A stretch of DNA of 64,000 bases from Eudromia elegans (lineage: Eukaryota > Chordata > Aves > Tinamiformes > Tinamidae): positions 36,861-100,860 of the forward strand of contig PTEX01000333.1 in the NCBI GenBank assembly GCA_003342815.1. The letters run 5' to 3'. Below, piece after piece: positions 1,289 through 64,000 of the stretch. Both the position numbers and the translations under genes were made by a program. The notes under the pieces are model-generated. The model was not told the DNA's origin, searched no databases, and worked only from the letters and a program-made list of their open reading frames with translations. Position 1 is the stretch's first letter. Every line of letters begins with the position of its first letter.

Positions 1289-1476
1289 CTGAATATTATA
1301 CGCTTGTCATTGGGTATATAATACTCTTTAATTTCCTTAGTGGAATACAAGTTGTTTATAGCCTCACGAGAGAGGAAAGGGAGTGGACTGTAGGATCCGA
1401 TGAGCCGGAGCTTCCATTTCCCAGATGCCATATGTAGGTCACCACTATGTGCTTCAGCCATAAAAGTATATCCTTT
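1289..1476 (-). CDS. ADGB: ADGB exon ([13 protein letters not shown], last exon in window)
   Basis: 188 nt, phase 0 to 2: [20 protein letters not shown] then [20 protein letters not shown], and further [12 protein letters not shown]. It matches mammalian [28 protein letters not shown]. The acceptor is TTACTTTCAG; the donor is TCAG|GTAAAC. No further ADGB exon was recognised in bases 1-1,288, so the next lies beyond the left edge. Confidence 0.96.
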
Positions 1477-7400: not shown

Positions 7401-10400
7401 TTTCTGTGAGGGTAAGTTACACAAGCTTACATGTAAGGCTACTCCTGCCTCATTCTTACTAGGGTTTCTGATTCCTCAGAGTATATCTGCAGCCAGTTGG
7501 ACTGCATCAGCATCTACCAGATAGTCACTGAGTACAAAAGCACAGAGAAGCTGAAGATATGTCTCCATACGGAGATAACCACAAATACCAAAGAAAAGTA
7601 AGGCCAATCCTTCAATGTAAAAGACTTCTGTCTTTAAAATGGTATTTTTTTACAACCACTCTTTACTCTTACCTTATTCTTGGGATAAATGCGAGGTGCC
7701 ACTTTGAAAAAGACGTGTGGCATTTCCTCCAGTGTGTCATTATCAATTACATGGAGCCTACACGTAGGGATAGAGGTATACATCTTTGGCACTATAAGCA
7801 TGTCTTCTGGAACATAAAACGTCTCTCTATTAAAAAAATAAATACATAAAATAAATTAAAATAAAGGAAAATCACTTTAAAAATATGTCAAATTTCTTTT
7901 CACTAATAAAACAATTTCTGGAACACACAATAATAGCAACCATTAGAATTACAGGAAAGTAAAATCATATTTTTATAGCAGGTAGGTGATAAACTACAGT
8001 GAGTCAAAAACACTACTTCTCCATAGGAGTTATGTAAGGCATGAACTCACCTAAAAACCACAAACCAAACATTTGGTGGCTGATCAGCATATGTTACGAC
8101 ATAGTCAGAAAATGAGATCTTGTACCATTCATCTTCATAACAAGGAAACTTTTCAATTGACTTACAGTTACTTTTAAACATTTCTCTAGAAAGCAGAAAA
8201 CAAGATAAACATTTAAATCTAATCACAAAAGGGCACATAATCTGACATTACTATATGCTAATCATGAAAAATACTGCTTTTTATGTTAGTGTAAAATAAT
8301 GTGTGTTACCAGCATTTAGTAGCTGTTCCAAATGTAGTACTTCAAAAAAATTTAATTTATTTCAGTACCTCAGAAATGGTAAATCTACACGGATGGGGAA
8401 GGTGCTTTTCAAGTTTAAGAGCTAACAACTTGTAATTGCCAACATGAATAACTGTATCTGAGAGTCTGTCCATAGGTGCAACTGCTTCTAGCAACCCCAA
8501 ATATTATGGCTCCTGTAATGTTTCTTTGTATTTTTTAAATCAGGTAGCAGAGCTTCAATTTTCACATTAAGCTCACATTAAACTGTCATCTTAAACCTGT
8601 AGCTCCACTAGGAAATAAAAAAAAAAGTTTTTTCCCTCCTTTTTAAGGCTTTTTTGAACAAGAAAATGATTATATAATATAACCATATAACTTAAAGGAT
8701 CATTTAAAGATGATGATAACAGCCAACCTTGATATTTAATTAAGGTGAGAACCACAGAACAGATCCATACACCACTGAAAGTAATTTAAAGCAAAACCAT
8801 TTGAATCCTTAATTTTTGATGTTTTGTGAGGATTTTTTTCCACAAATAAAAGTACACAGATGTGCAAAAACAGTATCAGAAAACCTCAAACCTGTAAATT
8901 CTTTAAAGATTAGAAGAGGAACAAACCATCATGAATAGGACATAGATGTCAACTCCAACACAAACTTAGAAGTTTTAGGGCATTTTGAACTAGGGCTTTG
9001 TGTTGTAAAACAGTAGTGCTTTTGGACCCTTCTAAGCCTGGGCTTAGAGAGAAGAAAAGCCTCTACTCTAATAGCTGCCATGAAATTCCTACATGTCTGT
9101 CAACTGTAAATAAATAAATAAATAAAAACACAGTAACATGACTTTCACACTCAAATATGTCTATTCCTAAGAACTATGCCTAAGAATCTAGTCTAAAAGT
9201 TTGAAAAAATTGAAAGTAGACTAAAAACTGCATTTGATCTTTGCTTCTTGAGAAATGCTGCAAATCTGAAATTCAGATTCATTATTTTTTTTTAATTCTA
9301 AAAATGTTCAGAACTAGGACTTGATGTTCCTCTCTGCATGCAAATGTTTTACTGACTCTAGAAAAGTGGATTAGAAATGCCAAAAACTGAAAAAAAGAAT
9401 AACACCCCATGAGAATTCTTCAAATTACTGTTTATAAGAAGAGAAAATTTGTGCCGACAGCTAGTAATTACTGACAGTTCTTACTCCTCAGCACTGCCAC
9501 AACTGAGCTACTGCTGAAATTATGTGAACACCTGCAGAGGGGTATTTGAAAGACTTCATGAAGACACATGATCTCCAAACAGCGCCATGCTTGCAAATAA
9601 TTTAAGGAACACTGCTGTAATTAACGTAGTCAACTTCATAGAACCCGTAATTAAATACTAGGGAAAGCATCCACCTGGAAATACACCTACTTTCCTTGAA
9701 GTAAGTGATACAAACAAATCCTTTGATGCTAAAAACTGTATTACAATTAAACAAAGTTTCTGGCATAGTTGCCACCTTTGTTGATCAAATAATGTTGATA
9801 AGGCTTCCCTAAAAGACAGTAGGAATCAAATGCTTCTTTAATGCAACTTTAGGTCCTTAGTCAAAGAATCAGTATCAGATTTATATTTAAGAAAAAGTTT
9901 ATGAGATATGAAATAAATAAATAAATAAATACAGAAGAAAGGCAATATTCTAGCTCAAGCTGCAGGAAAACATGTTGTACATAGTAAAATGCATAGGTAA
10001 AGATTAGATTGTCATACAGTTTGTTTTTTTTTTTTTTTTTTTTTGCTATAGCTTAGCTTCACTGAAAGAATCTTATTTTTTATAGTTTAACTGAATTTTG
10101 CAGTTTTAAAAATAGTAATGCTCTTGCAATATTTACATTGTGAACCAGCAATTTATATCAATTCTCTGCAACAGAATGCACAAAATCTATGCAATATGCT
10201 GCACTGATATTTGTTAAATCATTACCTTAACAACATTATAGCATACTGTTCAGAATTTAACTCAACCAAAGCCCACAATTTTTTCAAGGTTTCTTTGACG
10301 TTAGCATTTTCTTTAGTACCTGAAAATAATGGAAATAAATTAGAAAATTTAAATATCTCTTTCTAAATCCATGCCTGAAAAATACTTATGAAAAAAAAAA

Positions 10401-13400
10401 CAAAACAAAAGAAAACAAAAAAACTACTCACACAAGTCAATTTTCTTATGAATCATTGTTTTACTATCCAAAAATTTATAGAAGTACCACACAACTGAAA
10501 GCTAATCTTTGATAGGGGAAATTCTCTTAATCATATTATTGCTTTCTGCTTACCAGCATTTCTGCTAAAAATGATGAGATCAATATCTTCTCTGATTTAC
10601 AGGTGTTCTTTGTAACATACTCTATCTTAGCATGAGATAAGAGGTGATTTCCGCTCCCAGGAAAGACAGTTTGTCTTCCAGCAGCTTTTATTTGCAGATA
10701 CTAGTAAGGTGTAAGTAGGTGCCTAGGCAATCTCTACAGACAATAAAAAGAATCAGGCAACTCCAAAGGGTAATTCATCCTGCCTGAGATCGATACCTCT
10801 CAGATGACAGGACATGCTGCCCTCTCAAGGTGTTTATTTCTATCCACAGATAAAAATAAAAGATGATAATAAAAACAAAGATGAGACAAACTAGTTTAGA
10901 CCTAATGTCTAACTTTTCCTGCCTAAACTTTAGCAAAATCCTCCTCTATTGTATAATGACAGAATTGAAGAGGAAAATAAAAAGGACAGGGGAATAGTAA
11001 AAATACTGTAAGGACAAATAAGAAAGCAAGATAAAGTAGTACAGATAATGAAGAAAGGATGCAGAAAAGCAGTATGAATGAATAAAAAGGTGAAGTAACG
11101 GGGAAAAAATGATCAGAATAAAAGGTAACAAAGATTAGGGAAGTTTTAGCAAACTTTCACTAGTGTTATTAATTCCTGCAAATCTCAGAGCCCAGAATCT
11201 GCTCATCTTTAGATTATTTTTTAAGCACAGAGTATTGCAAAAGACTTCTTGTGTTGTATATGTCTTTCTTTTCCTCATCTGATTTGTCTCCACTCCATTA
11301 CCTTTTATTCTGATCATTTTGCTCTAGGTGATCCTGTTCTAGATGTCAGTCAGAGGTCTCTGCCTACCTTGACTGTTCTGTGATTCTGGGGACAACTTAT
11401 TAAAGAAGGAATCCATCTCTCACAATGGAGCAGTTTTCCTTGTCAGGTTTTTCAGACATTCATATATTGTGAGACTAGAAGAATTATTCTTTGGGATCAA
11501 TTTGACTTGCTGTGTAACAGGCTTGTTACACATTAACTGTTATTTCATCCTATATAAATGATCAATTAAATATTTTCTGAATCGTACAAATATGATTTTA
11601 AAGTTGCAGTGATGGAAAACCCAACACAAATCTTGTGGTCTGGTTTTACCATTATTCCTTTAAATTCAATATAAAACTCTTGAAAATACTTTTGAAAAAA
11701 CTCTTGAAAAAAGTTTTAACAATGATATTTTAACAATGATATTTAGATTTCTTGGAGCCTTAATTCATACTGTTAAATATAGTTTACTATATAGATTAAA
11801 AAAAAAAAAATCCAGAACACTTGAGTGTATAGCATGTGACTGGCAACCCCCCTCCCAAAATCTCACACAAAACTATTTGTGGCAAAGACATAAAAGAAAG
11901 ATATGTATTTTAAAACTTTTACTTACTTTCTGAACAGCAAACATCCACTCCAGTTCTAAGCTAAAACTGTATTAATGCTGCTTTAACATCTACCAAAGTC
12001 AATGCGGTAGGTCTTTCCTCTACCTCAATCACTTTTTAGTGCCTTATGTGCTATGTTTTATTGTACTGCAGTTCATTTTAACCAGATATTAATTAGTAAA
12101 AAAAAATCCTTAGTGCAAATATCTGAACAAGATGCAAAATGAAGCTTTCTAGAAAAAGAAGGGACATACCCGGTTTTCTGCCTTTTATCACTTTCCTAAC
12201 ATAGGTCCCCCTCCAGCTGGCTTGAAGTTTGACTGCTGCTGCTTCTTCTTCAGAAGTGGGAGTTCTGTTCTGCCAGCTACTAGGCAAAGACGTTTCAACA
12301 GCCTCTGAAAGAAGAGAACGACAAAGAATGACAACAATGGAAATCACATAGATGCTTTCTATATGATTAAAAAAACCCCAGAAATATAATCCATAAATAG
12401 AGTAGTTTGTGCACAAAACCTCCGTTTATGACAGAAATAACACTCTGGCAACTTTTCTCTATAAAAAAACCCAGAAATTAATTCATGATAAAAATAAATA
12501 CAATTTACTGTGTAATTACATAAAGTTATCATGCAACTACTGTGTTAATGCCAAAGGCTAAATAATTGAGGCCTTACTTCTTACAAACAGCTATTACAGT
12601 ATTTTTTAAATTGTCTTCCAATGTAATTTTAAAATAATTTTCCAAATATGAATCAAGATAATTTAACACATAATTAAAGTCTGACTCTGAATACATCTTA
12701 AAAGAAAAGCTTTACAAGATTTTAAATATTTAAATCTACTGAACTGATCATCTTATTAACTAACAATTTCAAAACAGATACTGTTGAAAATGAATTCAGC
12801 TTTCACTATGGAGCCACGGAATATGCATAAGAATCTCAATAAAGCCGTGCATTCACCTGACTGTGATACTCTGTCACTGATGGGACTGGAAGTGGAACAG
12901 AAACTGGTTGGTTCTGACAGTGTTAGTGAGGAGATCTTTGTCGTAGCCCTTGGCAGTGCCCAGAATTAGCACTCCTGGGAGCCATCAGCATCAGGGCTTT
13001 GTGGGAGTGTTTGGGTATGCAGCACTAGAAGGAGGCAGAGCCAGGAAGCCAGTTTGGAACTGCACAGAGACTAAATGAGGGCAGTGAGAGACGGAGGGAA
13101 AAAAGGACAAAGTGCTCCAAAAGGAAGTTCCAATAAACAGACATGAGAAGAATGTTGAGATCCACTTGAAAAAGAGGACAAACTGGAGTTAAAATTGCTG
13201 TCTCCTGACAAGAGATTGCCTATTTTAATCTAACATCTATTGAATGTTGTTAAATTTGGCTGTGTTTCTAACTCTCATTCCTGATTACTATCTGATTTCC
13301 AAACCCAAGAAGGCAATCATTAATAATTAGTGACTCTGAAAGAATACACAATATTACTTCAACAGACGGCAGATTAGGCCTCAACAATACACACAGCACA

Positions 13401-16400
13401 ACCATTTTTTATAAAATGGAAGTATAGAATCATAGAATAATATAAGCTGGAACCACTGGAAGCCACATAGTTCAAGCCCATGTTCAAAACACCAAAAACT
13501 TAGAGTAGGTTGCTCAGTGTCTTGAACAGATGTTCAATTTTCCTAACATCCAGTTGGAATTTCCTATTTTCCAGCTTGTATCTTACCACTTTGCACCTCT
13601 GAGGAGGTCTGTCTTCTCTATACTCTTCCATTTATGTGCCAAAGTAATCTACATTTCAAAATGAACTTGTCCCAGCTACATGCTTGTTTATTTTACAATT
13701 AAATAATCCAGTGGCAAAGCACCGTGTTGTACCTTCTGACCCTACTCATGTTACTTAGTGACACTGCTAATGCTGTGCAACTCAACACTGGCTTCACTTG
13801 GAATGGAGGGTAAAGAGTTATGGCTGTGGCCAACAATCATAGACTTAGTCTTGTGCACTGGAGCGAGTTACTCAGAGACAAAGGAGCTGAAAGGGCTGGC
13901 ATTTTCTAAAATCTGAAAATCACAGTGTCATAAGCACTTAGGTTTTCTTACACTAATTGATCACAGAGTTTCTTCAGTTCTATATGTTCTATGACACTGC
14001 ATACTATTTTTTACATTTGAATATCTAAGTGTCTTCAAAACTGTGAGAAGGTTAATCCCATGCTGAAAACTTGAAGCACTGAGAATTTTCTGAAATTTTC
14101 ATCGAGGTTTAATATATTTTGTTCTAACCTTTAAAATAGATTTTTGATTTGTATGACAGAAGTCAAAATAAAAAATCAGAATGAAATATTTGGACTTTAA
14201 ACAGGTCTATGTTGCATTGGAGAGGCATTTTATGTATTCCTGGTAATGGCAAGCTTCCCTAACCTGTTACTGCAACTAAAGTTCAAATCCAAAAGAAGTT
14301 CATGAATAAACAATTGTCTACAAGGATTTCTCCAGCCTCACAGCATAACTGCATGACCACTGATCTTATATCAAGTTTCTAGAAGAAAGAGAAGCTTATT
14401 CCGAAGAAACGAGGAATAGGGCTCTTAAATTATGTCAAACACAGAAAAGTTTATAGTCTATTCAATTTTTTTGAAGTCAAGAGTTTGACTTCAAGGCAAA
14501 ACAAAATCTCAGACAAGGGTGTTCTTACAGAACTGTACACACAAAGTACTCTACAACTTCAAAGCTGCGACTCTCCCTGAGAAAGAAACCTATCCTTTGA
14601 CTTATGCCTAAATGATCGTCAGGCGACTGAGGCTCCTGGCTTGGAAATCAGTCCACAGACCTCCAGTGAGATCATAAACGGACCTGACTCATTACAGGGC
14701 CCAGTGAAAGCAGCACAAGGTGAGCAGAGGCAAGCAGCAATGAGCAATTAAGACTATTGGCCTCACTTGTGTAACCTCCTGGTGAGAGGCTTCCCGTCCT
14801 AGGAACCTTCACATGCATCTGTAAATTCAGCATCATATGACTGCCAAAAGAGCACGGCTCTTTACCTCTCTCTTTCCAAACGACTACAGAAGAGCTGTGC
14901 AATGGAGTAGCACTCAGCTTAAGCAATGTCCACCTTTTTCTCATGTTTACCCGCTGTGCCCTCCTGTTTGCTTCTCACGGCTCCTGTGCTTGCTGTTCCA
15001 GAGGGGTGGGTGGTAGCTGGTAGACAGATCGATGTTACTAGATTCTTTTCAGGTTGGCTTCTCAGAAACCTTACCATGCAGGACTTCTGCCTGCAGCATC
15101 CTTGCTGGGGTAATCAATAATGTGCAAAATGGACAAGCTAATGTAAAATGGAGGTGGCATTTCAAAAGAAAAAAAAAAAGTTCAGCTTTGACTTCCCCTC
15201 CTGTGCCTACCCTTCCCCTCCTGTGTCACACACAGTCAAGAAAATAATTCCTTGCACCTCTTACAGTACTTCGCATTGACGCTTACTGTATTCCATGGGA
15301 TTCTAACTTAAATCTTGACAGGATCCAAGCAACCACAGTGACAATGCTGCAGTGCTAATGATGGCCAAGTAAATATCAGACTTTCTACGCCTTCCTATAA
15401 TGCATCTTTCACTTCTGCTTTCATTTTGTCTATCTATTTTTTCTACCACTTAGCTTCCTTTTAGGGTTTTGTTTGTTTGTCTGTTTGTTTTTGAATGTAG
15501 ATGTCTTCATTTAAATTTCTGGGACAACATCTGAACAAAAGAATTTTTTTTTCCCATGTAAAATTAATTAAGCAAAGCAAAATACATAACCAAGGTGAAT
15601 ATAGCTAAAATGAAACAACGTACTTCCCAAATTGATGGGAATTTCTGCTATTTAAGTTTGTGATTAAGTAGCCTTTCCTCAGGAAAGGAAAATGAATTTG
15701 AAAGATAAATTAGACACCGTAAGAAACCAAGCTAAAATAAAACTTGCCTCTTCCACACATTTTTTTTCTCTTTTTTTCTGTTCCACTCCAAATTCTAAAA
15801 ACACTCCGTCACAGTTCATCTTATGATTAACTATCATATATAAGGTCTTGTTAGAACATTTCAGCTGCAAACATTTATCTGTGCTGATTATTCAAGTCTA
15901 ATTAAAAATGCCTTCTACTGCTGACAAGTAGTAAATTTTCCTCAGAATAGAGAAATCTTGAAAAATGTGAAAGGTGTTGGTGACTCTTTCAAGTGCTGTA
16001 ACAAATGCCAGTATTCTGACTCTTATAACCTATACCATTGCTGTTCTGAATCATAAATAAACCCTCTATTAATAAATAACCTTCTATTAATAAATTATTA
16101 TTTAAAAGTTATAAAGACTTCAAAATAAGCCTCTTAAAATGAAAGAGAGCTATGCATTTGGTCAATATAAAATCCAGAAAAACAAAAATATGGTTTCTGT
16201 TCTGAGATCTGGCTTACTGAGGAATTACAAACACTTCTTCCCAACAACAGAAAATCTAGACATCTCATAAGGTACAAACCATGCTTACCTAAGGAAGAAA
16301 ATACAAGATCATTGAAAAGTTAATTCCCTCTATCTTAATAAGAGGCAAAGACATTTAAGGTGTCTAGAAATACTGGTATTGTACCTGAAGACACACTGTC

Positions 16401-19400
16401 ATCCTCAGAAACCTCAATGGCTTTAAAATCCAAAGTGAAGGATCTGAAAGCAAATCGATAACTGGGAGGAACCTTGTTGGCTAATACATGTTTGATCAGA
16501 CACCAAAATGCACTATTGAAAACCTAAAATGAAACAGAGAAAAAAGGATTTGTTTTTAAAAGCTGATTTATATTGCTTCCTATTAATATTTCAGATACCT
16601 TTTTTCCTTCTTTCTGTAAAAACGCAGTCTGTATTTCTAAGTTCCTCTAGCAAAGATAGTATTAAAAAATTAGTCCTTGCTGTGAGACCAAAATGCTTCA
16701 AGATGCGAATGAAGACAAAACCTGTTCATATCTGGGTTCTTAAACACAGAACAAATTCTACAACAAAAGCTTATCATCTAAGGCATCTTAGTGGTTTATA
16801 TGAAGTGAATTGATTGTCTCAGTCCACAGCATTAACACATCATTATTATCATCAGGAGGATTGGCTTTTTTGTTTTAAGAAGACAGATCAACAGCTGAAT
16901 GGGCACGTGTACTGAATAAGGAGATGACATCAATAACAAAAATACAAATGTATTGGTAGACAGAAGGAGATTTGGTGCCCTACTTATGTGACCAAATTGA
17001 TTACTTTATTTTTGCTTTCATCATACTGATGCCCTTTAAGCAGAAATTCAATCTCCCCTTTCTTCTTCCACCAGCTGGAAATGGTAGACTGTTTTTCAGA
17101 GCCTGTACCATAATTTGAATACAAAGAAAAATGATAACAGAAAATTAATTTAAGAGAAAAATATTTATCAGACATTTCTTCTCTTTTCACTTTTCTTATT
17201 TCAGATTGTTCTGCTTACTGGAATATTTTATCCTGAGTTATGTATGGTAACATTAATAATTTCATTTGTTTTGAAAGATTTAAAACTAGTGAAGAAACAA
17301 TCTACTTTCTTACATGCTTATGTTCAAAGCAATTTTTCATTGTTTGTATGGAGATGGATCACTTCCACATTTTTATGCTTGAAAAACTGCTAGCTAATTC
17401 AGTGCCTCTCTTTTGAATTTAGTTTGTTTGTTTTCTTTAAACTATACATTAGTTTTCTTCAGGGAGCAGGAAATATAGATGTTCCCTCCTACTGATTTTT
17501 TTTTAAATCTCTGATTTTTACATACATATCTTATATGAGCCTATGCACTTAACATTGCCATTATCTATTTTAGAGAGGTCACACTATTTTTCACACTAGA
17601 CCTGGCATTAAAAATAAAGCTGCTATAAGATATGGACCTGGAACCAGTTGTGACTTATTCCTCACTGTTATTGTCTTGCTGAATTTTAGCCTCATGACAA
17701 GCCCATATACAGAAGTAGTGACTTCTGTGTGCTACTTTTTAAATATCAGTGTTTATAAAAATATGAATCTCCTTTTATTCAGTCTTCTAAAATAAGCAGT
17801 CTAAATGGCAATGAGGCCACCACTACTTTGCTAAAGGTTACTCAAGTTGAAATATAAATTGATTATTGAAAAACAAATTTGTAATAGTACTATCAAAATG
17901 TGCATAAACATATACATTAGTCTATCTTCTGTAACACTTGTTTTAGTAGTAAACTATTTATGCACTGAAGAGCTACACTACAGAGATTTATGTGAAAAGC
18001 ATAACTGTTTAATCATGCATATGGAGACTTTTGAATTCATCATTCATAAAAGCTAAGTAAGAATATAGTACATCAAAAAAAAATGCAGAAATACTGCCTT
18101 CAGTACCATAAACCATATCAATGCCACCTTTATTGGGCACAGAAAAGAACCATCCTGTCTTTTGCTTTCTGAATTTCTGATTGTATCTTTCAAATCCCAA
18201 ATTAGATGATAAAATTAAGAAAATTAAGAAAACAAGATACTCAGATTTAGAATGTGCTACTCTGAGCATATTAAAATTTGTTCATACCAAGAGAAATACA
18301 GCTCATGGTTGCAAACTCTGTCCTTTGTGCTTACACTTAATAATGAGTGCCATATTTGGAGCACTCAGGAGATCCTTCTTGAAAGTGCAGTCAGTGTTTT
18401 GAAGAGGCTAGTGACAATGTTAAGCTGTTATCTAACTTTAGTAGCCTTCAGTTATATATTTGCTAAAACTGTTTGTTCACCTTGATGTGTTCTTCAACTA
18501 TTCTAGTACCCCGGATGCCAGGAGGACCGTATGTCAGTTGCAACCCCTTCAGAGCTCTAGGAAGTTCAAGCTTACTGCTGAACTTTTTTATCACATTTCC
18601 AATAGATTTCATGATAGCTGTAGCCTGTTCTATAAACCGGTAGCTCTCCTGGGGAAGAGAAGAAAAGCAATCATTGTTAGCCAAATTGTTTCAAGATTTT
18701 CTGTTGTTTTATTTTGATATTGTAACAGTATATATATAAAAAATCTGTGCTAAGGTATCAAACTTTTTTTTAAAATCAACCAATTGCAATTGATTTTATC
18801 AACTGTCAAGTTGATTAGGTCTCTGGTATCAAAAGCATTCCAAATAACACTGATTTGAGCTACTGAGATGAAAATAATACAACACTAAAACAGGCAGTAT
18901 AATATATCTGGTTATCGTTTTCAATTTTCCCGTATTACTAGTCCTAGAATTAATCAAAAATAAGGTGCTTGTTAGTGAAATACAAAACTTTGCTTGTGTT
19001 ATAACAGGACAGAGATGAGTATTTGTACTCTGCTGAATACAGTGTCCAAAAACATTATGCCGAAAGCATCGTTAATCTTCACCAGGGTTTCTGTGCAAGA
19101 ACAGGGATACCATTTTGCAGAAGATAGATACTGCGAGAAACTGTTCTCTCAACAAAAAAATGCAGAGAAGACTCCTGGATTTAATTCTTCATTACTTTTA
19201 GGACAAGGAGAAGTCTTCCTCCTACGATCTGAAGAGGATAGTCCAGAGACATTATTTTTTCAGTGGCTCTACTTCTTTCCTAAAATAAGTATCAATTGGC
19301 ATGAGACACTATACTAAACTGTTACTGGACCCTGAAATTACAGTGCTACATAAATGGCTGTTAAACGCATGTTTCAATTATTTTTTTTTCTTAACTCTGC

Positions 19401-22400
19401 TCTAGAAGCTATACTGCTTTGCCCAGTGCCCATGCCCAGATAAGTGGGCCTCCTTCTTCTTGCCAAATAAATATTGAAAATGTGGCAGGCAGTGACATCG
19501 TGTGGATTGTATAAAACCAAGACAAAAGCTGTAATGATTACTTCCCAGGGCCTCTTACTGCAGGTATGCAAAGCTTCTTTGAATCAATTATTCATTTTAT
19601 GTAAAAAAGCTACCCTGAGACTCATTGAGTAATATGTGATCTCATGGGACGAAACAAAATTACTGATGTGAAAGTTTATGTTACTAAGTAGGTATTTTTG
19701 AATAGAGATAGTATATTGGTATCTGTACATATATTTTATCACATTTTTATCACACCTACTTTTATCAAAACATTAATTAATTTCATATTGGAATTAATAT
19801 TGTACCATTAAATTCAGCAATTATATTTTAAAGTAAGACAATATTTCATTTTAAAAATAGATAGTACTCCCATATTTAGCACAATCGTCGACTAGTTCTG
19901 GCTACACATACCTTCTCAAGACTTGACATCACAGTATCTTCTTCTCCAAAAACACACGGCACAGAGGTACACAAATGAACATGATGTCCTATGGGAGAAC
20001 TTACAGTGAAGAGCAATACATGCCGCCTACATTAAAGAAAAAGAAATAAAAAACCCCCCTCTTTATCATGCAGAGTCTTAAACTTTTATTTTCAAAAGAA
20101 GAATTTAATTTAATGCATTAAATTTCATAAAATAATTATTTTCATATAATAATCATTCCCTTGCTTCTCCTGCTCCTCAAATCTTGCAGTTCTAACTCCT
20201 TGCTTCTCAAAGACCTCCAAATATAGGTTACAGAGGCAATCAGAAAATTCACTATTTTATTTTTGCATCTTAACATAATTTGTTTAGATTTGTTTTAGTT
20301 TTCTACATGAAATATAAATATTTTGACTATTTCAGATGGATAAAACCTCAAGTTTCTTTAGTCAGTAGTCACTGATATAAGCAAAAGTTTAAAATAAGCA
20401 TTTTAGCTAACTTGCTTGAAAACTTAAGAACATATCTATTCTGGAAAGCTTGGCATGAAAATCAAGTGTTCTGGTCATACCTAATGTACATCATAATTTC
20501 CTTATTTGCATTGACGGTGATCAGAAAAATGTAACACAATCACACCAGGCTAAAATAATACTACAGAGTGACAATACTATTGATCAGTTGTGGGCCAAAC
20601 CATTCTTTCTCAGCTGGCAAACCTCAGAAATTCAGTATGTTTAATGGGGAATCATCCACCTCAGTTTATTCTTGTTCAGCTGATGGTACCTTTTAACAGA
20701 TTCTCAGTATAAATAAAATATTTTTTTAAATCTGTTAAAAGGTACCATCAGCTGAACAAGAATAAACTGAGGTTTGTGCAGGCCAAAAACTTAAGAGTTC
20801 AACAGAGGTCCAGAAATGAGACTAAAGAAGGAAGCCTGGATATTTTCTCCCCTACACATGCTCTTTTTCAATCTTTTTCTGAGTAAAATCTGAAATGTTA
20901 CCAGACAACTGCCAAAGAGAGGGAAGAAAGAGCCTTCCTGGCTTAGCAAGGCATTTTTCATCTGGAATGAATGAAATGGAGGAGCAGTCAATAAGCCTAA
21001 TTCTCTCCCCCACACACTGTAAGTCAAAGGTTGCTCAAAGCCTGCTGGCAGGGAAGAGCAAAGGACGGGCTATTGTCTCTGGTAGCACCCCTGGTCGCTC
21101 TGAAATCTGCAAACAGTGCAAAAAGATGCTTGCCTGCCTTCAGACTTCTGTTAAAGGAACAGTTATCCACTCAAAATTTCTACAGTGGTACCTCCCCACA
21201 GGATAGATATGTTACTTCTGGAAACTGCAGAGAGAAAATGCATATACTGACAAAACTAGCCTATAAATGTAATAACAACGTTTCTGGTTTTACTCTGATC
21301 TAAAGACAGAAGGAATCTCTATCAGAGGTCTTTTATGTAGTATGAACACGTTATACTTTCTTTCTGTGCCTATTTATTTGAAATCTTCCCTCATTTCAGT
21401 TTGTTTCTATTGATTTAAAATATTTTATAGCTCTATTCAATTTTCTAAAGTTTTTTTTTTTGTTGTCCTATAACTATGTGACTTGTGTTATTGATATGTA
21501 TTTATATTGTAGGAATTACAAACTGTCCTAGAACAAGAAAGTTGAAAGTTAAATTCATTACTTTTTAAATACATTTTGTCTCATGTCTTTGAAATTAAAC
21601 TGCTGGTTAGTATTATTTCAGAAAAGGAAAAGGCTGCAATGAATTCTTGAATAATATTATAATTGTGTAAGATATTATAATGCCATCTTTTCTTCACTGG
21701 AAACATTTTTTCAGAAACTAACAAATAACAAAATATCAAAAGATTTTGGTATTCATTATATTTAATTCAATATAATATATATTATATCTATATAAAATAG
21801 TCATAGAATAATTATTAGATTTAACTTTAATTTATTTAATTTAATATTTGTTATATTAACTAGGCAGTACTCCAAACTGATTATCTGGAGTTATGCGGAA
21901 GGAAAAATAAATCATACTAAGCACTAGTAACATGGTATTGATACAGGTTATGTTTGGAATATGAAGTAAGCTATGCAAGACTCCTGGCAGATTACCTGAG
22001 ATTTTTTTTTCTTTCATGCTTTCATAAAACCTATTTCAAGAAGAGCTGTGAAATTTCCTGCAGTATCTTACCATTCTTTAACAATTCATCAAAAATCCTG
22101 ATCTTTGGATTGCTGTTGATACTTTGAGAAACATTTCAAAAGACTATAATTCTAGTCAGAATTTTAAGTAAGAATTTGCATTCTAGTTTTGCTTTTAGAA
22201 AACCAGTGTGATTCCTCCTCTTACTGCTTATCAGTAAAACTAAGGAATTCATCATCTTTTTTTAAGACGTGTTACCATGTCTTAGCTATTGAACGCAATT
22301 ACGTTTTAGTAAACAAAGTCGTAGTTCTTGTGTAAAGTAAAAGATCCTTTCAAGCCTTAGTAATAATATTTTATGATAGAAATGAAGAGTCATACATACC

Positions 22401-46400: not shown

Positions 46401-49400
46401 CAATGGACTAGTACTTAACAATTGCTGTTTCAGGATATGGAGGCAATAGATATTTCAACAAAAAATCAACAAAACCGTTATAAAATTTCAAAGAAAAAAA
46501 GAAAAAAAAACTTTGTCACTAATATTTCTCAGAAGTTATTCCATTTTTCTGGGCTAACTTTTCCAAAACACAAATAGCCAGCAAGGAAACTATCAGCCTG
46601 AAGGAGGAAAGTTAGCAATGTTTTACGGGTCAGAAAATAAAGACATACATGGGAAGTACTGAACAACATAGAAGAGGATTCTGTCAGGAATGCTTGGAAG
46701 AAAAAAAGTAAAAGTCTGTTACTGCTTCTAATGAGGTCTATAATTAAGACAGAACTTCTTCTCAATGATGCTTGGCTTACAAAGATAACACAGACCTTTG
46801 CCAGTTTTATCAGCCTTCTCTGCTTTCTCAGTTTTCTCTGACTGCTTATTCCCAGGTGAAATTTCATTTTTTAATTCAAAAGTTTTGGTCTCTTTAGGCT
46901 TTTTCTGTGGCTTATCAAGTTCTGGAGTTTTCCCATTTGGCAGCTTGAATTCTGGCACAATGTTTTTCAAAAAGCCCCAAACTTTATCCATGTTACCAGG
47001 CCTTAAAAAAACAAATGCATGTAATCATTAACGATATTTGTATCTGCAGCAAGATAAGAACGTGTGGTCTTCACTTGGAGAACATTATCAACCTCACTGA
47101 CAGTCCAACTCTTTGAAAAAATGATTAGGTTATTCTAGTAAATAAACAATATTTACCTAATTTTGTATACATGCAGAAACATAACATGTTTGTTAAAAAA
47201 GATGCCCAAAACAAAGAGATGTTTGTTAGAAAAGCTAGTAATAACATTCTTTCCTCAAGCCTTTTAGCAGAAAAAAATATGGCCCAATATTGTATTGTGC
47301 AATTACTGGAGAAAATTTATACACCACTTTGCAACTGTATTATTTAATAACTTGATCCTACACACTAAAAACTTTTCTCAAAGGTGCTTTCAGACTCAGT
47401 TTTCCTATTTGTTTCAACACATGCAGTTCCATGAATCTTCCACTGATTCCATGAGCTAAAACAGCATCTTAATATGATGGTAGGTAGCATGCAGTTTCTT
47501 CACAGAAAATCAGTGATTCCAGAAATAAACTGAAATTGAATGAATTATTCAGGACCATAAATAAGTTTCATGCAATCTAACTGCATGCTTATTTAAATAA
47601 TTGGTTGTAAAGCAAGCAGAAACCATCTTTGTATTATTACAGCAATAATTTTGTGGTATTCACATTTTCCCTCTGCAAAAGTTAATAAATTTGTAATAAA
47701 TGCCAGAGTCATGAATATATTTTTGTTGTTGGAAGAACGAAATGCATAAAGAACCTAATTCAGGTCATTTATATATCCAAATCCATGGGCTACAGGCACA
47801 CAGCAGGACAGAGCTATCTCAAAAAAATAAACCACAAATATAAAAGGGACAAAAAAAATATGACTACTGAAATGAAGAGCAAAATAGGAGAAGACTGATC
47901 TTACTTTATACTGAAATATTATTAAACCTAAACAATAACATCTAAACAAATTATACCTAAACCAAAGCAACCATATCTAAACAACTTATTCATTTAAAAT
48001 GGCGAAAAAGTACAATTAAAAAAAAAATTGTGAAATGAACTAAAACACATAGAAAACAAGTAAAAAATATTACCAGAAATTGAAAATATTATTTATATTT
48101 GAAATAAGAGCATACCATCTACTCCAGTTTAAAAAGTGAAAACATCGCACTAGCCAAATTTATTTACTTCACACCATATAGTATACTTTCTATAGTACAT
48201 TCCCATATAAAATTATTACTGTTCCTGACAGACAACTTATAGTATCTATGATATAAACTTAACTCTTAATCTTGTTTTCACCACAAGCCTTGATATCAAT
48301 TAAAATATAAATTAATTTTAATAATAATAACTATCACCTTAACACAAGAGGTATCTGCACAAGTATCACACGTATTCACAAGTGCATAGGTATTCACAAG
48401 TATCTGTGTGACTTGTAAAGAAAAACACAATAAAATTAGATTCCTTGTAGGTACATTTTTCTAGTGCTAGAACTAAAAGACTTACATTACCTCAAATTCA
48501 TGCTGATGAATTTTTAAGTTCGGCCTTATTTTTCCTTAATGCCTTATAAAACTAAATAAGTAACATGATATTTTTTATTAGAAGAACTTACTGGATAGGA
48601 ATAAGTTCTGGTATCCATCCAGTCAGGGCATGCAAAACTGTAAATTCTTCTAGCTCTCTTTTTCCACTTTCACGTACACTACAACAAAAAAGTAGATGGA
48701 ATGTAGAATTATGGAATTATAATATTTATTTATATAATTAAAAATAACATAAATATAGTAACATTTGGACTAGAAAATCTCCATAGGTTCCTTCCAATCT
48801 CAACCATTCTGTGGTAATATAGCCAACTCATGGTGAACTCTACAGTCAATAGTGCTTTCTGTAAGAGCTAGATAAGATGTGCGCAGGTACAGATAAGTAA
48901 ACTTCAAAAGAACAAGGCACTAGTCACAACTTTAGCAGTTCAGTTGATGTGCTCCTTAATGTGTGATATCAATAGTTGTAACACAAACGTTAGCAAGTAC
49001 ATTATATTCTCACATTGCAGGATTTTTTTGCACAGATTAGAGATGCAGGTGTGATATCTCTCATGCTATAAGATGGAAATGAACCTAGAACCTCCTGAGC
49101 AGATTCTCCCAAATTATTATGCTAAAGTTGGTTGCATTTCCAGGGTACCATACCTGACACTTTCAAAGAGAAAAGGGCTCCTATGTTACAAAGAGGTTTC
49201 CATCTGTATATCCTGAGAGGACCTAGGTTAAAGGTGCCAGCCTTTAGCCACGACTCAAGCCCCTGTGACTTAAGACTTCAAACACAATCCTGCAAACAGC
49301 ATTTTCTACTGGGCCGCTCAAGGTGACTCCCTGTCCTGTGTGGAAGTCCTTTAGATATCTATCATCAGACAAACCAAAAGGGAAACTACACATTCTGCTC

Positions 49401-52400
49401 AGTATGATATAATGATACTGTGCCTATATTTCTTTCGCTTGTTTACACAAACATTTCCATTCCTTATAGAATGGTTAAGCCTCACAGTTAGAACTGCAGT
49501 CTCTTGGACATTTCTATTTGGCAAAAAACAGCACATTGAGTCTTTTCTGGAATAAATGTAGACAGACAAGGCAGATATGCAGAAGAGATAACTCAAATTT
49601 CTTTGTGAATCTTTCTGTGTGCATATATACATAAACAAACACATAAGAAGAAATCACAGTTTCTTCAATAATCATTGAGGAACATGATTTACTAATTTGT
49701 TGTGCCAGCTTTGAGGAAAGTGCTTATGTGTCATATGTGTCATTACAACATTTGTAGTAACATATTTTTTTCTTGTGCGCATTAAAATCACCCTTTTTTT
49801 TTTTTTTGGAAATTCCATGCAATTTCACATAACAAATCGAAAATGAGCTGACTAAACATACAATGTATTTGCAAGCTTAATGATAGCTTTGGACAGCAGC
49901 ATTGGCCAAAGTTCAGTTTCACAGGTTGTAGCTGGTAGTAACAAATTATCATCTTCACTGAAAGGCATAGTATCATCCACAGTGATCTTTCTCCAGCATC
50001 CCTATGCCAGGAGGGGGAAAAAAAAAAAAAAAGAAAAAAAAGAAAAAAAAGAAAGAACATTGAATTTGTGGGTTGGAAAAAGAACTTATATGTAGGAAAA
50101 TGCACATCCTTTCCTAAGAATTCAGTTCCATTTTAATTTATGGTAGAGAATTTCTCATGTAGTATCTCAGAAAGATGGAAATAGTATCCATAATATTTGA
50201 TTATTGATCTATTTCATAGAGTAATCCAACTCTTCTCTTCCTATGAAGGATACACGAGTCCCTCAACCATCACAGTAGCCCTTTGCTAGACTCCCTGCAG
50301 TAGCTCCACATGTCTTGTATTGGGAAGCTCAGCACTAACCCCATCACTCCATTGGACATCTTTGCCACAAGGGCACATTTTTGGCTCATAGTCAACCTGC
50401 TGTTCACAAGGACCCTCAGGCCTTCTCTTATAGGTGCTTCCCAGCAGGTCAACCCTAGGATGTGACAAAAATCACAGTACTATTGCAGCTCAAAGAAATT
50501 AACCTTGTTTTTAGCAGAAAAAAAATTATATTTAGATACTTATTTCATAAAACAGAATGACCTGTTTTTTTATTTTTCTTTTGGAATTGTTGTTTGTGCT
50601 AGGAAATAATACTGAAAATTGTTGTTTGAGTATCTGAAGTTATTTCAGTAGACTTTTTAGCATACATGTAACTTTAGCAACTAACATTATTATATCTTCT
50701 TTCTACAAAGTAAGCAAAAAAAAAAAAAAGCAAGCATAGGATCTTCTTGTACAGACCAAAGGAAAAAAGCACTCATGTTTTAATGTCAAAGCTTAATGAC
50801 AGAGTATTAAATTGTACAAAAGTCCCATGGGATGCATTTTGTTTTTCATTCACCAACAGTTTTTTAACGCTTTTATTTCTACAAACATCTATGTGTTCTA
50901 ATCATAAACACTTACCTTAATCATTAAAAGTTTGGCTTTTTGGCTGTAGAAATTGTACAGAGAAATAATGTTTTATAATACTAAAAGCAACTACTCACCA
51001 TCCAATAAAGTTTCACTATATATTTTCCATAGCTATTGTACAGTGGCATGTGATCGCTAGTAGCTTTACATAAGGAGTAAATATGTTCCCATGGTTTCCA
51101 AAAAAGTGAGGATGTTTCACTAGTTGAAACCTTGTCATTACATATCCTCCAGGCTAAACAAATTTCACTTATAATCCATCTCATCAGCTGAAAGAAAAAC
51201 ACAGAAATATGAAAAGAAAAAATATTTCTACTTAAAACTTTTAGAAAAATAAAATCAATATTCTATAATGATCAATGGACATGAAGAAGCAACATAAAAG
51301 CAACTATAGATTTATTCAATATTTACTTTCACTAGTAGAAGTTTTTCTTTCTTTTTTGTAGTTCTGTAACAACACAATACTATCCAAATCAGAACAGATA
51401 TAACAAATTAGGTTGTCCATCCACCAAAAAAAAATGCGGATATTTTAAAGTAAATTATATTATACGTAGCTTTTAAAAATTAGTATCAGACTCAATACTC
51501 AGTAGAAGAATATTAAACTATTTTAAGTATTTAATAACTTTTTAAAATTTAAAATAGAAGCTTTAACAAACAAGGCTCTGTCAAGTATGTATCTTTCTAA
51601 CATACAGATTTACAATGTACGCTGTGGTTTCATAGTATTACTAGACTGTGATTTCTAGAAACAAGAATGAGAATCAGCTTTTATTACAGTGTATTTGCCC
51701 TAAAAACAAGCAGTAGTTCTGTGGATAGGAAAGTGTTCAGCATCCCTTTTTGGTTAGATCTTCCCATACAATTTCTCTTACACTTCATTTTAAACTTTCA
51801 TTGAAGACTGAATTTAGTTGAATTTATGAAGAAGCATATACCCAGAGAGGCACTCACTTGGTGCCTTACTCAAATCTGTAGAAATTCTATGTCTTTGACA
51901 CATCCATTCTAATCTGTGCAGAATAACAAGGCTGGCTGGTTGGCAAAGACATTCATAAAAAAATCAGGTTTAGTAAGAATATGACTTCAGGAAAGCTAGA
52001 GTAAAAAGCAGAAATTCTCTCTAATCTGGCTTTTCTTTTATATTATCTTTAGAGATGATCGCTCCATTAACAGTCTCCACAGTTCAGAGCCTCTATATTT
52101 TCTTAAGAAATCATATTTGGAAAAAAAAAAATTATTTTTACAAATTCTAAAAAATGCAAACAGAATTTTACAAATCCAGATTTTTTTTATCACTGTTTCC
52201 CTCTCATTCTTTTGTTTTCATGTAAGGAACTTGTAACAATTTGTTTATTCATAGCAGAAATCTGGAGTGAAATATACCCTTAGAAGAGAAGAAATATAAA
52301 AAAGTGCATTTATGTATGTCTACCTACCTCACTACAAAATATATGGTCATTTGCTGAAAAAAGGTCAAATGTGGTTTCATTTTTGACTACCGTTGGAACC

Positions 52401-55400
52401 TGGGAGAAAGATGAGTTAAATGCCCATTATCCACAAAATAATTAATGAACAGCAATGTTTAACAGTAGCTATATACAAATGTTATACATATCAGACATCA
52501 ATTAAAAGGCTGTAATTTTGCAAGCCTTTTTTCTGCTTTGGTATTTTTATTTTGGTATTTCCCTTCAAATGCTCTTCTAAGAACAAAAGAATCACTGCTG
52601 TGGAGTCTCCTGCTCTGGAGATCTTCCAAACTCGCTCGGATGCCACCCTGTGCCTCGTGCTCTAGGTGTCCCTGCTGGAGCAGGGGGGTTGGACTAGATG
52701 AACTCTAGAGGTCCCTTCCAACCCTAAAGATTCTGTGATTCTGTGATTTTTAGTAGATGATTAAAAAGTTGTCCTGAAGATAATTTAACTAAAACCAGTG
52801 TGTAAGAAGAACTTGAGCATAAAGCGTAAGGGTTAGGAATCACAGGACAGTTCAGCCAATTCAATAATTTACTGTTTCTGAAAGGAGCAGTCTTACTCCT
52901 CTACCCCAGCTCTGGTTTTAATTACACAGTCTCACCCTTTTTCTTACTCAGTGCTGGAATCTGGCTGACCCCCCAATAGCTGTCTCAGATCTCTAAAACA
53001 GAAGAGTTTAATTGTCTTTTTTTTTTGCTGCCAGTTTTCTGCCAAGTTTAGCATGCCGACTGGCTTGTCAGAGCTGGATGAGCAGAAGAGCTGATTCAAA
53101 AGCAGAGTTAGAGTGTGGGGCTGGGATCCACACGATGGTAAGCAGAGCAATTTTAACACTTTTGGGCGGCAGAGACTTTTTATATGGGCTTAGACATCTT
53201 GTGATGTCTAATGAATACTTTCAAGAAAAACAATATCTAATGTACTCCCTTCTTTTTAAATACTGCTCTTTCATGTTCTATCCTCAGTGCAAACACTTCA
53301 AATTTCCTAAAAGTGAGCCAAACCTACTATGCTTGTATCTTATCTGTTGTTCTATTCAAAATTCTGTAAAAAAACTTAAAGATATATACTTTATGTAAAT
53401 AAAGTCTCTTCTCTGTATCTTGAAATCTTAAAAGTGAAACTAGATAACTGGGTATTTTTTGACAAAAATCTGTTCATAACTGAAAGCTTGTTAAGATTAT
53501 GACAGATACCTCAGGATTAATTCCTGGCTGTCAGCAAAATCACTACCCATCTCTCAGCCAATCTAGGGTGGGCTGGGGATGGGGGAAGAGAAAAACAAAC
53601 AGAATGTTTGAAGAGAAAAAAATGAGCCTTCCTCCTGCCAAGAAGGATTCCAAGATATCAGACTCTTGAGTACTCTAAGGGGCAAGGTTCTTCCCTTCTC
53701 ATTTCTCATACTTAAAAAATAAAGTTCATGTCCTGTGGGAAATTAAAACATACAATGGAATCCTAACTTCTTTTTCCCCAAAAATCTTAACTCTTGACTT
53801 CTAATTGACACTATTAAAACTACCAACTCTGTATAAATACAGGACATTCAAACAGAACTTAATTTTTTATGTCTTTTCTCCTAACAGAAAATCATGTTTC
53901 TCAGATAGCATGTTTCTCGGGTGTCAAAATATAACTCTGCATATTTCTAAGCAGCTATAGTCATGCACGAAATCAGTTTTGATTGTACTAGTAGATATAA
54001 ACAATGTATTTAAGAAACGTTGAACTTCATTACAATGTTTTCATAACTGCTACTATTGAATACAGTCTATTTTCTAATTGCAAGCAATTCAAAGGACTAA
54101 ACATGTGTACTCCTATTAGCTATTGGTAATCATCTGTTTGATTCTTTGCTTATCACACTAAATAGTTTTTTTCTTTCATAGTTTCTAGCCTATTTGGCAG
54201 CAACATATATCATTAGAAAGTCTTTCATCACTTGAGATTTACAATAATTTTATAATAACTTATCATGCTTCTAGTAACCACAGCTGCTTGATCCCAAAAT
54301 ACACTGACATCAAAACAAGTATGAAAGTTTTTATCAACTCTTAAAGAACTAAATGCTTTCTTGACAAGATGCCCAAGATAGATTTTATAGTCTGTTTTTA
54401 CCATAGGTACATATGTTTCCACGGCGTTCTGGGTTGCCATATCTTTTGCCCTCATCTTTCTGGCATCTCTATTCAGTCTACATATTTTGGCAGCATTTCT
54501 CATCCAATTTTTCAGTCTTGTCAAATAGTGTCCTGATCCTCTCTCTCTTTCCCCCATTAAAAATTAAACTTGGAGCGCTTAGTGTATATTTAATAAAAAA
54601 TGAAACTGACAGGCTGACAAAAGTAAAACTGACAGGACTGGTAAAATTGGAAGGCTGGTCAAAGTGCTTTAAAACTTTGGCATTTCATCTGAAGCAAAAC
54701 TGCTTTAAAGCTCCAGATTAGCAGCAGAGATGGAGAGCACTCCAAGTTTTCATATGGTAGGCAGATTATATTCTATGTAATTTATGTTTGAAAGTAACCG
54801 AGTAAGAGCTTTGTACAATTATAAAGTGTTAAGAAATGTACAAATATAAAACATTCCAGACAAGCACTATCAAAGATGTGGACATGTTCTGCATGCAGTC
54901 AGGAGAAATAAAATACTTGATGTGTGAGGGGTGAAAAAGTTCTGTACTTTTGGTAGAGCTAATTCATGGTTTCAGGACACATATTTATTTCAGAGATCTG
55001 CTGAAAGGATGCCTCATCTGGAAAAAAGAAATCTGTTTCTGGGCTCTCTCACTTAAATTTGTTTTGCCATAAAACTGATTTTAGAAGTGAGAACACAAAG
55101 GAAAACAGGTGGACATCTCTCTGTGCAGGTGCCTTCTACCTTCTACATTCAAGTGGAAAAAAAAAAGCTGAAGAGAGCTAAAGGATATACTACCATGGGC
55201 ATGCAGCCTTAAAAACATACAAATGACTTTGTCTATTGAAATAATTCTCTACTACTTGTGACATAGCTAGGCAAATAGCATCTTTTCATTCTGACCTTGC
55301 TTGTTTCCTACCTTATTTGTTAAGAACTCATTTGGACGTTTCCATGAATTCACATTTAGGGACAATGGCAATTCTATCTTCCCTTCAGGATCCTCAAAGA

Positions 55401-58400
55401 CAGGCTACATAAAATATGCATATACAAAAAATGAACTTTTTAAAATTAGTTATATTATCGGATGATCTTCCACAAGATTTAAAATGTTTCATTGCTCACA
55501 TGATAATTCACTTAAGAGGAATAAAAATAGTACAAAAATGAACTAACAAATCTGTAACTCTCCGAATTAAACAGTGAAACTGAATTAAACACTGAATTCT
55601 GGTTAGCTGCTTCAATCAAAACTGACCATTTTAGAAAATTGTTTGGATATCTGGTCACATTTGATATGACCAACACCTTTAACAATTCCATTAAATATGT
55701 AAAGAGAGCAATGTGTCATATAGTTTAGTAGCTGGAGAACTTAGCAGTCTGACAAACAGGTCATAATGCTCTTATGGTAAATCTTTGTACATTTTATCTG
55801 TTACAGTAATGTCTGGGAGACATAGCAAATAAGCATTTTATTAATGTTTAGAGCCCAGCCCAAAGATACCAAGTGTAGTTATGGATCAGAAGAAAAACAC
55901 AAAGGAACATTATTTATCTGGCAAGTTAATACGGCATTCAGCTCAAAGCTGTAATTCAGTCAAAGAAGTTCTTTGGCCCAAGCAGGCTACACGTTTGGGA
56001 TAAGAAAAAAGATCTACATATCTAAATATGTATGCTAAAATAGTCATAACACACAACAGTACATATGGAAGACATATAAGAACAATGTAGAACTTTTATT
56101 TAAAATAGAAGAACGAGCATGGTAGTATATGGATTTAAAATACTACTTAATAATTAAGAGTTTAAGAAATACTTTAAGAATTTTTCTACTATGCTGCGTA
56201 AAACACATACATTCTTTAATGACAGTCAGTTTGAATGAGAAGTAAAAATCCTGAGGAGATTTGGAAGTCATGCAAAAGTTAGAAAGACATGAATTTCTCT
56301 GCATCTGGTAGGCAACTGCAGTTTGCAAAACAATTTTATCTCCTCAACCCACTCTCTGCACACTTCAGCTTGTGTTTCACCTGCCACCAGACTGAGTTGT
56401 GGAGAAAAGAAGACTTCAACCTGCTGCTCTTTCCATAAAAAACACTGCAAAGATGGATGCGTTCAGCCCTTTAAGTACATGGAAACCAGTGCCCAAAGAA
56501 AGGATTGATCTATCAAACTGCAACAATTAATTTTGTTCTGATATACTCAGTTTTATTTATGATATGAAATAGGTTAAGGCCTTCCATCTTTTTAGCCATT
56601 AATACTTTAACAGCACACACCTATTAATGCGTTCATTTAAAAATTAACGAATAGACAATGCACAATATTTTTGGTTAAATAACCTAGAATAACGGGAAAA
56701 TACTTATTGAAAATATATGCTTGGAAAATATTGTTAACCAGCAACAAATTATTTTGAAGTTGTGACAGAGTCATCATATACAGACAAGTTCCAAAATTAA
56801 GTAAAACTAATATATTTGTGTCATACGTTACTTACTAAAATAGGACTTCTTCGAGATTTTTCTTTGTCTTTTCCAGATTTTCCTGCATCCCATTTTTCTG
56901 CATTGATTTCTGCTTCATTCCATTCTGGCCAAATGGGAACTTTTGCTTTCTTTGCCTCACCGCTTGTACCTGTTTGGAAAGACATAGTCCTCCTGGGACA
57001 ACCAGAGGAATGAACAAAAATAAATACTAGACAGGCAAGTGAAATAGAAAGATTTCTATTTCATTAATTCATGTTTCTAATGTAATTTATTTAAGATAAA
57101 TGTGTCAATAATGACAATAACTTTTTATCACTAAAATAAGCTAGCCTATAGAATTGTTAGATAGCATTTTAAGGTATTAGTTAGAGCGAGGATACCAGCA
57201 GCTCCATTCCTTCATCGATGCAATCTGGAGAGCAGTTACAATATGTTCAGGTCACATCTAAATCAAATTCTCCCAAACCCAGAGCAAACTGCCGATTTCA
57301 TCACTGAAAGGCTGAAAAACAACCTGGCTCCCAAAACTGAGCAAAAGGATTTAAATAAATCTTATTGCAGAAAAAAATGAAATAAAAAAGTATGTCTACT
57401 TCAGCTAGTTAGAAAAAAAGGGACTCAGATTAGAATTCCCTCTTTGATACTCATCAGTGTCCTAAAATCCATATGTATGGTAACAAAATAGTAATATCAA
57501 AGAGAGATTGGAATCTCAATATAGTTTATATAACATGTCTATTTTATTATACACAAAAGCTAAGGATATTGGAACTCCATCTTTCCTTTTCTTATATACC
57601 ACACCTTTTCCACTTTTTTTTTTTAAACGAGCAGCAGCAGAATTCCCAGAAAGATTTTTCAGAGAGCTGGAAGATAACAGGGCACTGGGCTATGATCACA
57701 AAGCTATTTTTGCAACCATGTGTCCCAAATTATAACAATCCTTTTTAAAACTAAAACATTAACTTCTTCCTTAACTGATAATTTCAGGAGGCCAATTTGA
57801 AAGGACAGATTCCTATTTTTATATTTGATAAGAGTTATTTGACACCTGCCCATATAATGTATATTGTGGATATTTATCCTTTATAGAAAGCACACCAATG
57901 ATAATATACAAAGATATGATCACATTTATGCTCCAGAAGTATAGCTTCCTCCCGAGATTTTGGTGACTGCACAAAACATGTAAATATTTCTATTCAGCAT
58001 TTGCAAAACCACATTTGGAGCACTGTGCCCAATCTGGGGTTAACCAGTACACGACAGAAACAGATATATGGGAGCAAGTCTAGAGGAGGGCAAGAAGATA
58101 CTGGGGGCTGGAGCACATGAGATATCAGTAGAGGCTTTTAGACAGTGGAATTTGTCCAGTCATAACAATTGTAAAGGTAGAATATGTTTGCTGGCTTCAG
58201 CTATCAGGGGTGGACAGTGGCAGGACAAGTGGCAACAGACAAACTGGAATATAGGAAACACTCATCGTACATAAGGAAAAAAAGGCTCACTGTGATGGTG
58301 GCAAGCACTGAAACAGTTCTCTGAAAGGGGCTGTGGAGAAAGAACAAATTTAAGCAGAGAAAGCCCTATGTAATTGTTTTTAAGTTATTCCTGTTTTGAG

Positions 58401-63946: not shown

Positions 63947-63974
63947 GGCTGCGGCCCCGCGCCGCGTCCGCCGC

Positions 63975-63987
63975 GTTGCCCGGCGAC
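63975..63987. promoter_or_regulatory. Putative RFX X-box in the ADGB promoter
   Basis: GTTGCCCGGCGAC is an inverted pair of RFX half-sites with a 1-bp spacer. It fits the consensus GTNRCC(0-3N)RGYAAC except for one base in the second half. It lies 29 bp upstream of the start codon. RFX factors drive ciliary and testis genes, which agrees with androglobin's known expression, but binding here is inferred. Confidence 0.5.
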
Positions 63988-64000
63988 CTGAGGCGGCCCC

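Follow-up and report, generated by a model that had tools for sequence, protein, structure and literature searches.

The minus strand of the Eudromia elegans window, by which we mean the whole 64,000-nucleotide stretch of DNA analysed here, carries the androglobin gene (ADGB), and the globin domain that this gene encodes has Tyr at residue 824, where human ADGB has His824, the proximal heme ligand F8. The codon is TAC, at 18531-18529 within a minus-strand exon of 56 residues, with both coordinates and letters as described in an earlier, sequence-only reading of this DNA. The bird gene is apparently intact and single-copy. Judged from the sequence, the explanation that we favour, by a modest degree of belief, is that the globin fold has been kept, that proximal heme coordination has been lost or weakened, and that the domain works without heme.

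The features of the gene within the window are as follows.

63944..63946, minus strand: ATG of ADGB exon 1 (MASKGSRRR...), a MASK start as in human ADGB
56839..56964, minus strand: N-terminal exon piece, given as the extent of the tblastn match to a provisional human ADGB sequence and not as exact exon ends
50999..51187, minus strand: exon of the calpain-like region, from a splice-site scan and tblastn
49867..50001, minus strand: exon piece of the calpain-like region (match extent), 84% identical to the provisional human ADGB sequence over 45 residues
23526..23690, minus strand: domain II exon, Pfam Androglobin_II E=1.3e-15, acceptor candidates at 23690, 23678 and 23628
19912..20026, minus strand: exon for the end of domain II and the D region (residues 747-784), Pfam Androglobin_II
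18481..18648, minus strand: exon for residues 785-840, spanning helices E and F plus the FG corner, with Gln792 (E7) and Tyr824 (F8)
18529..18531, minus strand: codon TAC, Tyr824, the F8 proximal ligand position, placed by numbering, Pfam Globin and a hagfish alignment
16385..16523, minus strand: exon for helices G and H (residues 841-886)
12170..12304, minus strand: exon encoding the IQ motif for calmodulin binding, whose Pfam IQ score of 14.7 bits is under the cut-off of 20.3
10226..10319, minus strand: exon for helix A (residues 933-962)
8051..8185, minus strand: exon for helices B and C, with Cys970, CD1 Phe976 and Cys978
7673..7826, minus strand: domain IV exon, the spliced protein matching Pfam Androglobin_IV at E=3.2e-51
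1289..1476, minus strand: domain IV/V exon

Eight of these exons, from 20026 down to 1289, join in compatible splice phases into 375 residues free of stops. The window protein clears the Pfam cut-off of 27 bits for both Androglobin_II (44.9) and Androglobin_IV (172.3), with Androglobin_V reaching 13.8 bits, below its cut-off, on the 18 residues present. Residues 37-1121 of the provisional human ADGB sequence map piecewise by tblastn onto the minus strand of the window, and residues 1122-1665 match piecewise on the adjoining part of the same contig as far as the C-terminal KKKKGK, with some parts between the pieces having no match. The N-terminal calpain-like region and the C-terminal extension of androglobin are both present among these pieces; the Pfam matches of the one calpain-region exon scanned (50999..51187) did not include a calpain family. 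Exon order and colinear numbering show the circular permutation, with helices D-H followed by the IQ motif and then by helices A-C. His at F8 has served as a criterion for a heme-binding globin (PMC4527676), and the window protein does not have it; as this His is missing, and is likewise missing from hexapod orthologs, orthology to androglobin rests on the other features given here. In turtles, chicken and anole, androglobin is flanked by RAB32 and STXBP5, according to PMC4524481.

The exon for helices E and F (18648-18481) is open, with a high acceptor score and a moderate score for the donor AAG/GTGAAC under a simple splice matrix, which supports the intact frame and splice sites claimed earlier. 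A pseudogene is rejected on the eight exons whose junctions were examined, which are open and in compatible phase, and on the continuation of the gene to its C-terminus. A hidden second copy with His824 was also considered, with none found among the best-scoring genome matches of the exon or the spliced protein: the exon has one match in its own assembly, 100% identical, and the 375-residue protein has eight, all at the present locus, among the best 12 candidates scored. Elsewhere in the window, the frames at 63641-64000, around the start codon, are rich in Ala, Gly, Pro and Arg, perhaps reflecting a promoter CpG island. Sequences resembling CR1 retrotransposon 3' ends lie at 52710-52745 and 48786-48799 on the plus strand and at 13423-13438 on the minus strand, as fits a bird genome, the 3'-end motifs used to spot them being presumed typical of CR1. 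Feather keratin likewise marks the assembly as a bird's: a chicken feather keratin sequence finds 27 matches in it, the best being 84% identical over all 98 residues. Rfam gave no match at its gathering score over the whole window.

The heme ligands of human ADGB are given as H824 (F8) and Q792 (E7) in PMC9249397, and further residues of the human domain are printed in PMC11077535, including PVPFHDKEL ending at 834, which we placed at 826-834 as the printed start of 828 does not fit nine letters. With the exon for helices E and F set to begin at 785, no gap is needed against the published human numbering. Thirty human residues could be compared, with 10 equal in the window protein (761, 792, 826, 866, 872, 933, 939, 951, 970 and 978) and 20 different, mostly in 827-834 and 873-877. 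In this ungapped register Tyr stands opposite His824, Gln792 is retained at the distal position, and there is no His in 785-837, the only one in the exon being residue 838, in EEHIK; the replacement of the F8 His, the retention of the distal Gln and the absence of a rescuing His, all claimed by the sequence-only reading, are thus borne out.

This placement was also examined with profiles, for which the globin domain of the window protein was re-ordered from A to H (residues 934-980 followed by 775-884) and scored against Pfam Globin, with a cut-off of 22 bits. The native domain scores 17.0 bits, below the cut-off, and replacing Tyr824 by His in silico raises this to 23.7 bits and lengthens the profile match from 3-66 to 3-105. 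Single His substitutions at 820, 821, 822, 823, 825, 826, 827 and 830 give 15.3, 16.8, 18.7, 18.2, 18.1, 17.9, 18.1 and 17.1 bits respectively, and Y824A gives 16.7. We regard the register of residue 824 as secure, because the human numbering is followed without gaps and because His at 824 gains 6.7 bits, compared with at most 1.7 at the eight other places. Tyr is probably the derived state, with His at F8 both in published human ADGB and in the preference of the Pfam Globin model. The provisional human domain sequence scores 22.8 bits, falling to 15.2 with H824Y, and the bird domain with His824 (23.7 bits) is therefore, F8 apart, as globin-like as the human one. A degenerate globin fold is unsupported on the same comparison.

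Searched against PDB, the re-ordered domain in its native form had 80 chain matches with E no higher than 10, and of the 60 listed, 58 are hemoglobin or myoglobin; all are weak, the best (E 0.011) being hagfish hemoglobin 1it2. With the native Tyr this alignment stops at LKGLQ, three residues before 824, and with His at 824 it extends to place LKGLQLTH on LKDLSQKH, whose His, residue 103 of 1it2, we take to be the F8 His. On its own, the 56-residue exon matched nothing in PDB or Pfam at E up to 10, and no relatives of it were confirmed in viral contigs (12 pattern matches) or in prokaryote genome contigs (586 pattern matches). An AlphaFold2 model of the exon alone, from a single sequence, has a mean pLDDT of 69.7, but helix F is modelled poorly, averaging 57, 52 and 50 at exon residues 31-40, 41-50 and 51-56.

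A His inserted before Tyr824 also scores 23.7 bits, equal to replacing Tyr by His, so that among the places tested the His column of Pfam Globin falls at 824 or just before the Tyr. This bears on an alternative in which His824 was deleted and the Tyr now observed corresponds to Tyr825 of the human AHY, an insertion further downstream having restored the length. As the inserted and the replaced His score alike, Pfam does not decide between deletion and substitution; however, a deletion requires the second, compensating event, and the numbering fits without gaps at 792, 866 and 872, making this course of events decidedly improbable. It would leave the functional outcome, the lack of an F8 His, unchanged.

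Another residue may instead bind the iron in place of the F8 His, with His838 (G8 by ungapped count), His852, or a cysteine such as Cys765 or Cys770 as candidates. Residues 747-985 do offer His at 748, 760, 761, 763, 838 and 852 and Cys at 765, 770, 848, 970 and 978. The His of EEHIK, however, lies 14 residues past F8, and the provisional sequence of human ADGB, whose ligand is His824, has a His aligned with it; it is rejected on this ground as a shifted F8, and replacement by any other ligand appears improbable.

The surroundings of residue 824 were compared with the provisional human ADGB sequence, to which all of the following identity counts refer. Over 747-1121 the identity is 192/375, with 22/37 over 785-821, 2/19 over 822-840 and 16/46 over 841-886. 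Divergence is not confined to F8, since each of the 19-mers starting at 873-878 and 880-886 has just one or two identities. When the 375 sites were shuffled 20,000 times, some 19-mer with 2 or fewer turned up in 447 of the shuffles. Residues ~873-904 (16385-16523 and 12170-12304), covering the last part of helix H and the linker that leads to the IQ motif, are the most diverged part of 747-1121, at 1/19 in places. The provisional human sequence and an equally provisional mouse one agree at 15/19 residues over 822-840 and 27/37 over 785-821. That the whole of 822-840 is unlike this human sequence, and not one base of it, argues against a private variant or assembly error masking a His in the species and in other birds. 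A single genome was seen, which leaves some room for such an error, and the assembly comprises 943,969,204 bases in 723 contigs with no N in the window, which argues against a wrong base without excluding it; we consider this explanation highly unlikely.

Within helices E and F the core of the window protein reads E4 F, E8 A, E11 I, E12 M, E15 I, E18 V, E19 I, F1 L and F4 L, all the same as in the provisional human sequence except for E8, where Ala stands for Ser. The bird protein further resembles human ADGB in its domain order, in the IQ motif between helices H and A, in colinear numbering, and in Gln792, Cys970 and Cys978. It differs in having Tyr for His824, Tyr for Cys787, Pro for Cys894, Phe for Tyr976 and Cys for Phe770, as well as in 822-840, where nearly all residues depart from the provisional human sequence. 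The aromatic CD1 is kept as Phe976; CD1 is Tyr in ~82% of androglobin sequences and Phe in most others, and Cys770 occurs in ~22% of species (PMC11077535). Of the four cysteines in the human domain, those at 970 and 978 remain in the bird, and further cysteines are at 765, 770 and 848. With Tyr at 787, the proposed Cys787-Cys978 (CD) disulfide is impossible here.

Globins with Tyr at F8 can hold ferric heme, as in hemoglobin M, which counts against a heme-free reading of the bird domain. Tyr824 could accordingly bind ferric heme through its phenolate, which would make the domain a globin inert to oxygen and mostly in the ferric state, with possible redox or NO chemistry; this alternative, a natural counterpart of the human hemoglobin M variants with Tyr at F8, we consider less likely. 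Hemoglobin M Hyde Park is altered at codon 92, which we take to be F8, with its Tyr presumably binding the iron. The beta-globin change is CAC to TAC and brings a tendency to methemoglobin (PMC5225734). Daphnia HbC, E, F and K, for which the authors call oxygen binding questionable, also carry Tyr at F8 (PMC7457136). These globins share with the bird domain a Tyr instead of the proximal His; however, they are conventional globins, whereas the bird domain is permuted and lies within a large ciliary protein, its ligation being putative. The retention of Gln at E7, of the aromatic CD1 and of the fold signature is consistent with Tyr ligation, while the FG region, unlike that of the provisional human sequence, and the loss of Cys787 speak against it. 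The fuller proposal, that birds or one bird lineage have fixed the His-to-Tyr change at F8 and retain in this protein of sperm and cilia a ferric heme that is ligated by Tyr and inert to oxygen, we think quite improbable.

The diverged stretch 822-840 and the loss of Cys787, neither of them mentioned in the sequence-only reading, make plain loss of heme coordination somewhat likelier than a tuned Tyr ligand, although the weight of the former is lessened by the similar 19-mers elsewhere and by the human comparison sequence being provisional. Under the favoured explanation, loss or weakening of proximal coordination, the permuted globin fold would be retained around the IQ motif with conventional His-Fe coordination gone, and the domain would serve chiefly as a structural module linked to calmodulin and independent of heme, within a protein of cilia and sperm, or would carry heme at most weakly. 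Calmodulin binding by the isolated human globin domain needs neither F8 nor E7, being retained in human cells with H824G, Q792G or both (PMC9249397), so a calmodulin-linked role could persist without heme. This argument is limited to the isolated domain, as full-length ADGB showed no calmodulin binding under basal conditions in the same study. The retained Gln792 and aromatic CD1, which a heme-free domain would not need, count against the favoured explanation, as do the new oxygen- or redox-sensitive functions that the globin domain, argued to have joined an already existing ciliary protein at a later stage, is suggested to have brought (PMC13331133, 2026). NO binding and nitrite reduction are reported for the recombinant human domain (PMC11077535).

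Loss of F8 in androglobin has published precedent. All hexapod androglobins studied lack both E7 and F8 and have degenerated domains, according to PMC7457136; they resemble the bird protein in losing the F8 His from a retained androglobin, but in hexapods E7 is gone too and the globin domain is no longer recognisable, whereas the bird keeps the E7 Gln and the globin signature. What appears new here is the bird case, from one genome. Among the openly licensed PMC papers listed, judged by titles and the starts of abstracts, no report on F8 of bird androglobin was found, and the 2012 paper defining the family may show a bird sequence.

The role of the androglobin heme is unsettled, and a vertebrate that keeps the gene without the F8 ligand offers a natural experiment. 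If Tyr824 does ligate heme, this would be an unusual natural globin, a vertebrate one using the ligation known from hemoglobin M disease. If birds instead do without the F8 ligand, heme chemistry would not be essential for the role of androglobin in sperm and cilia.
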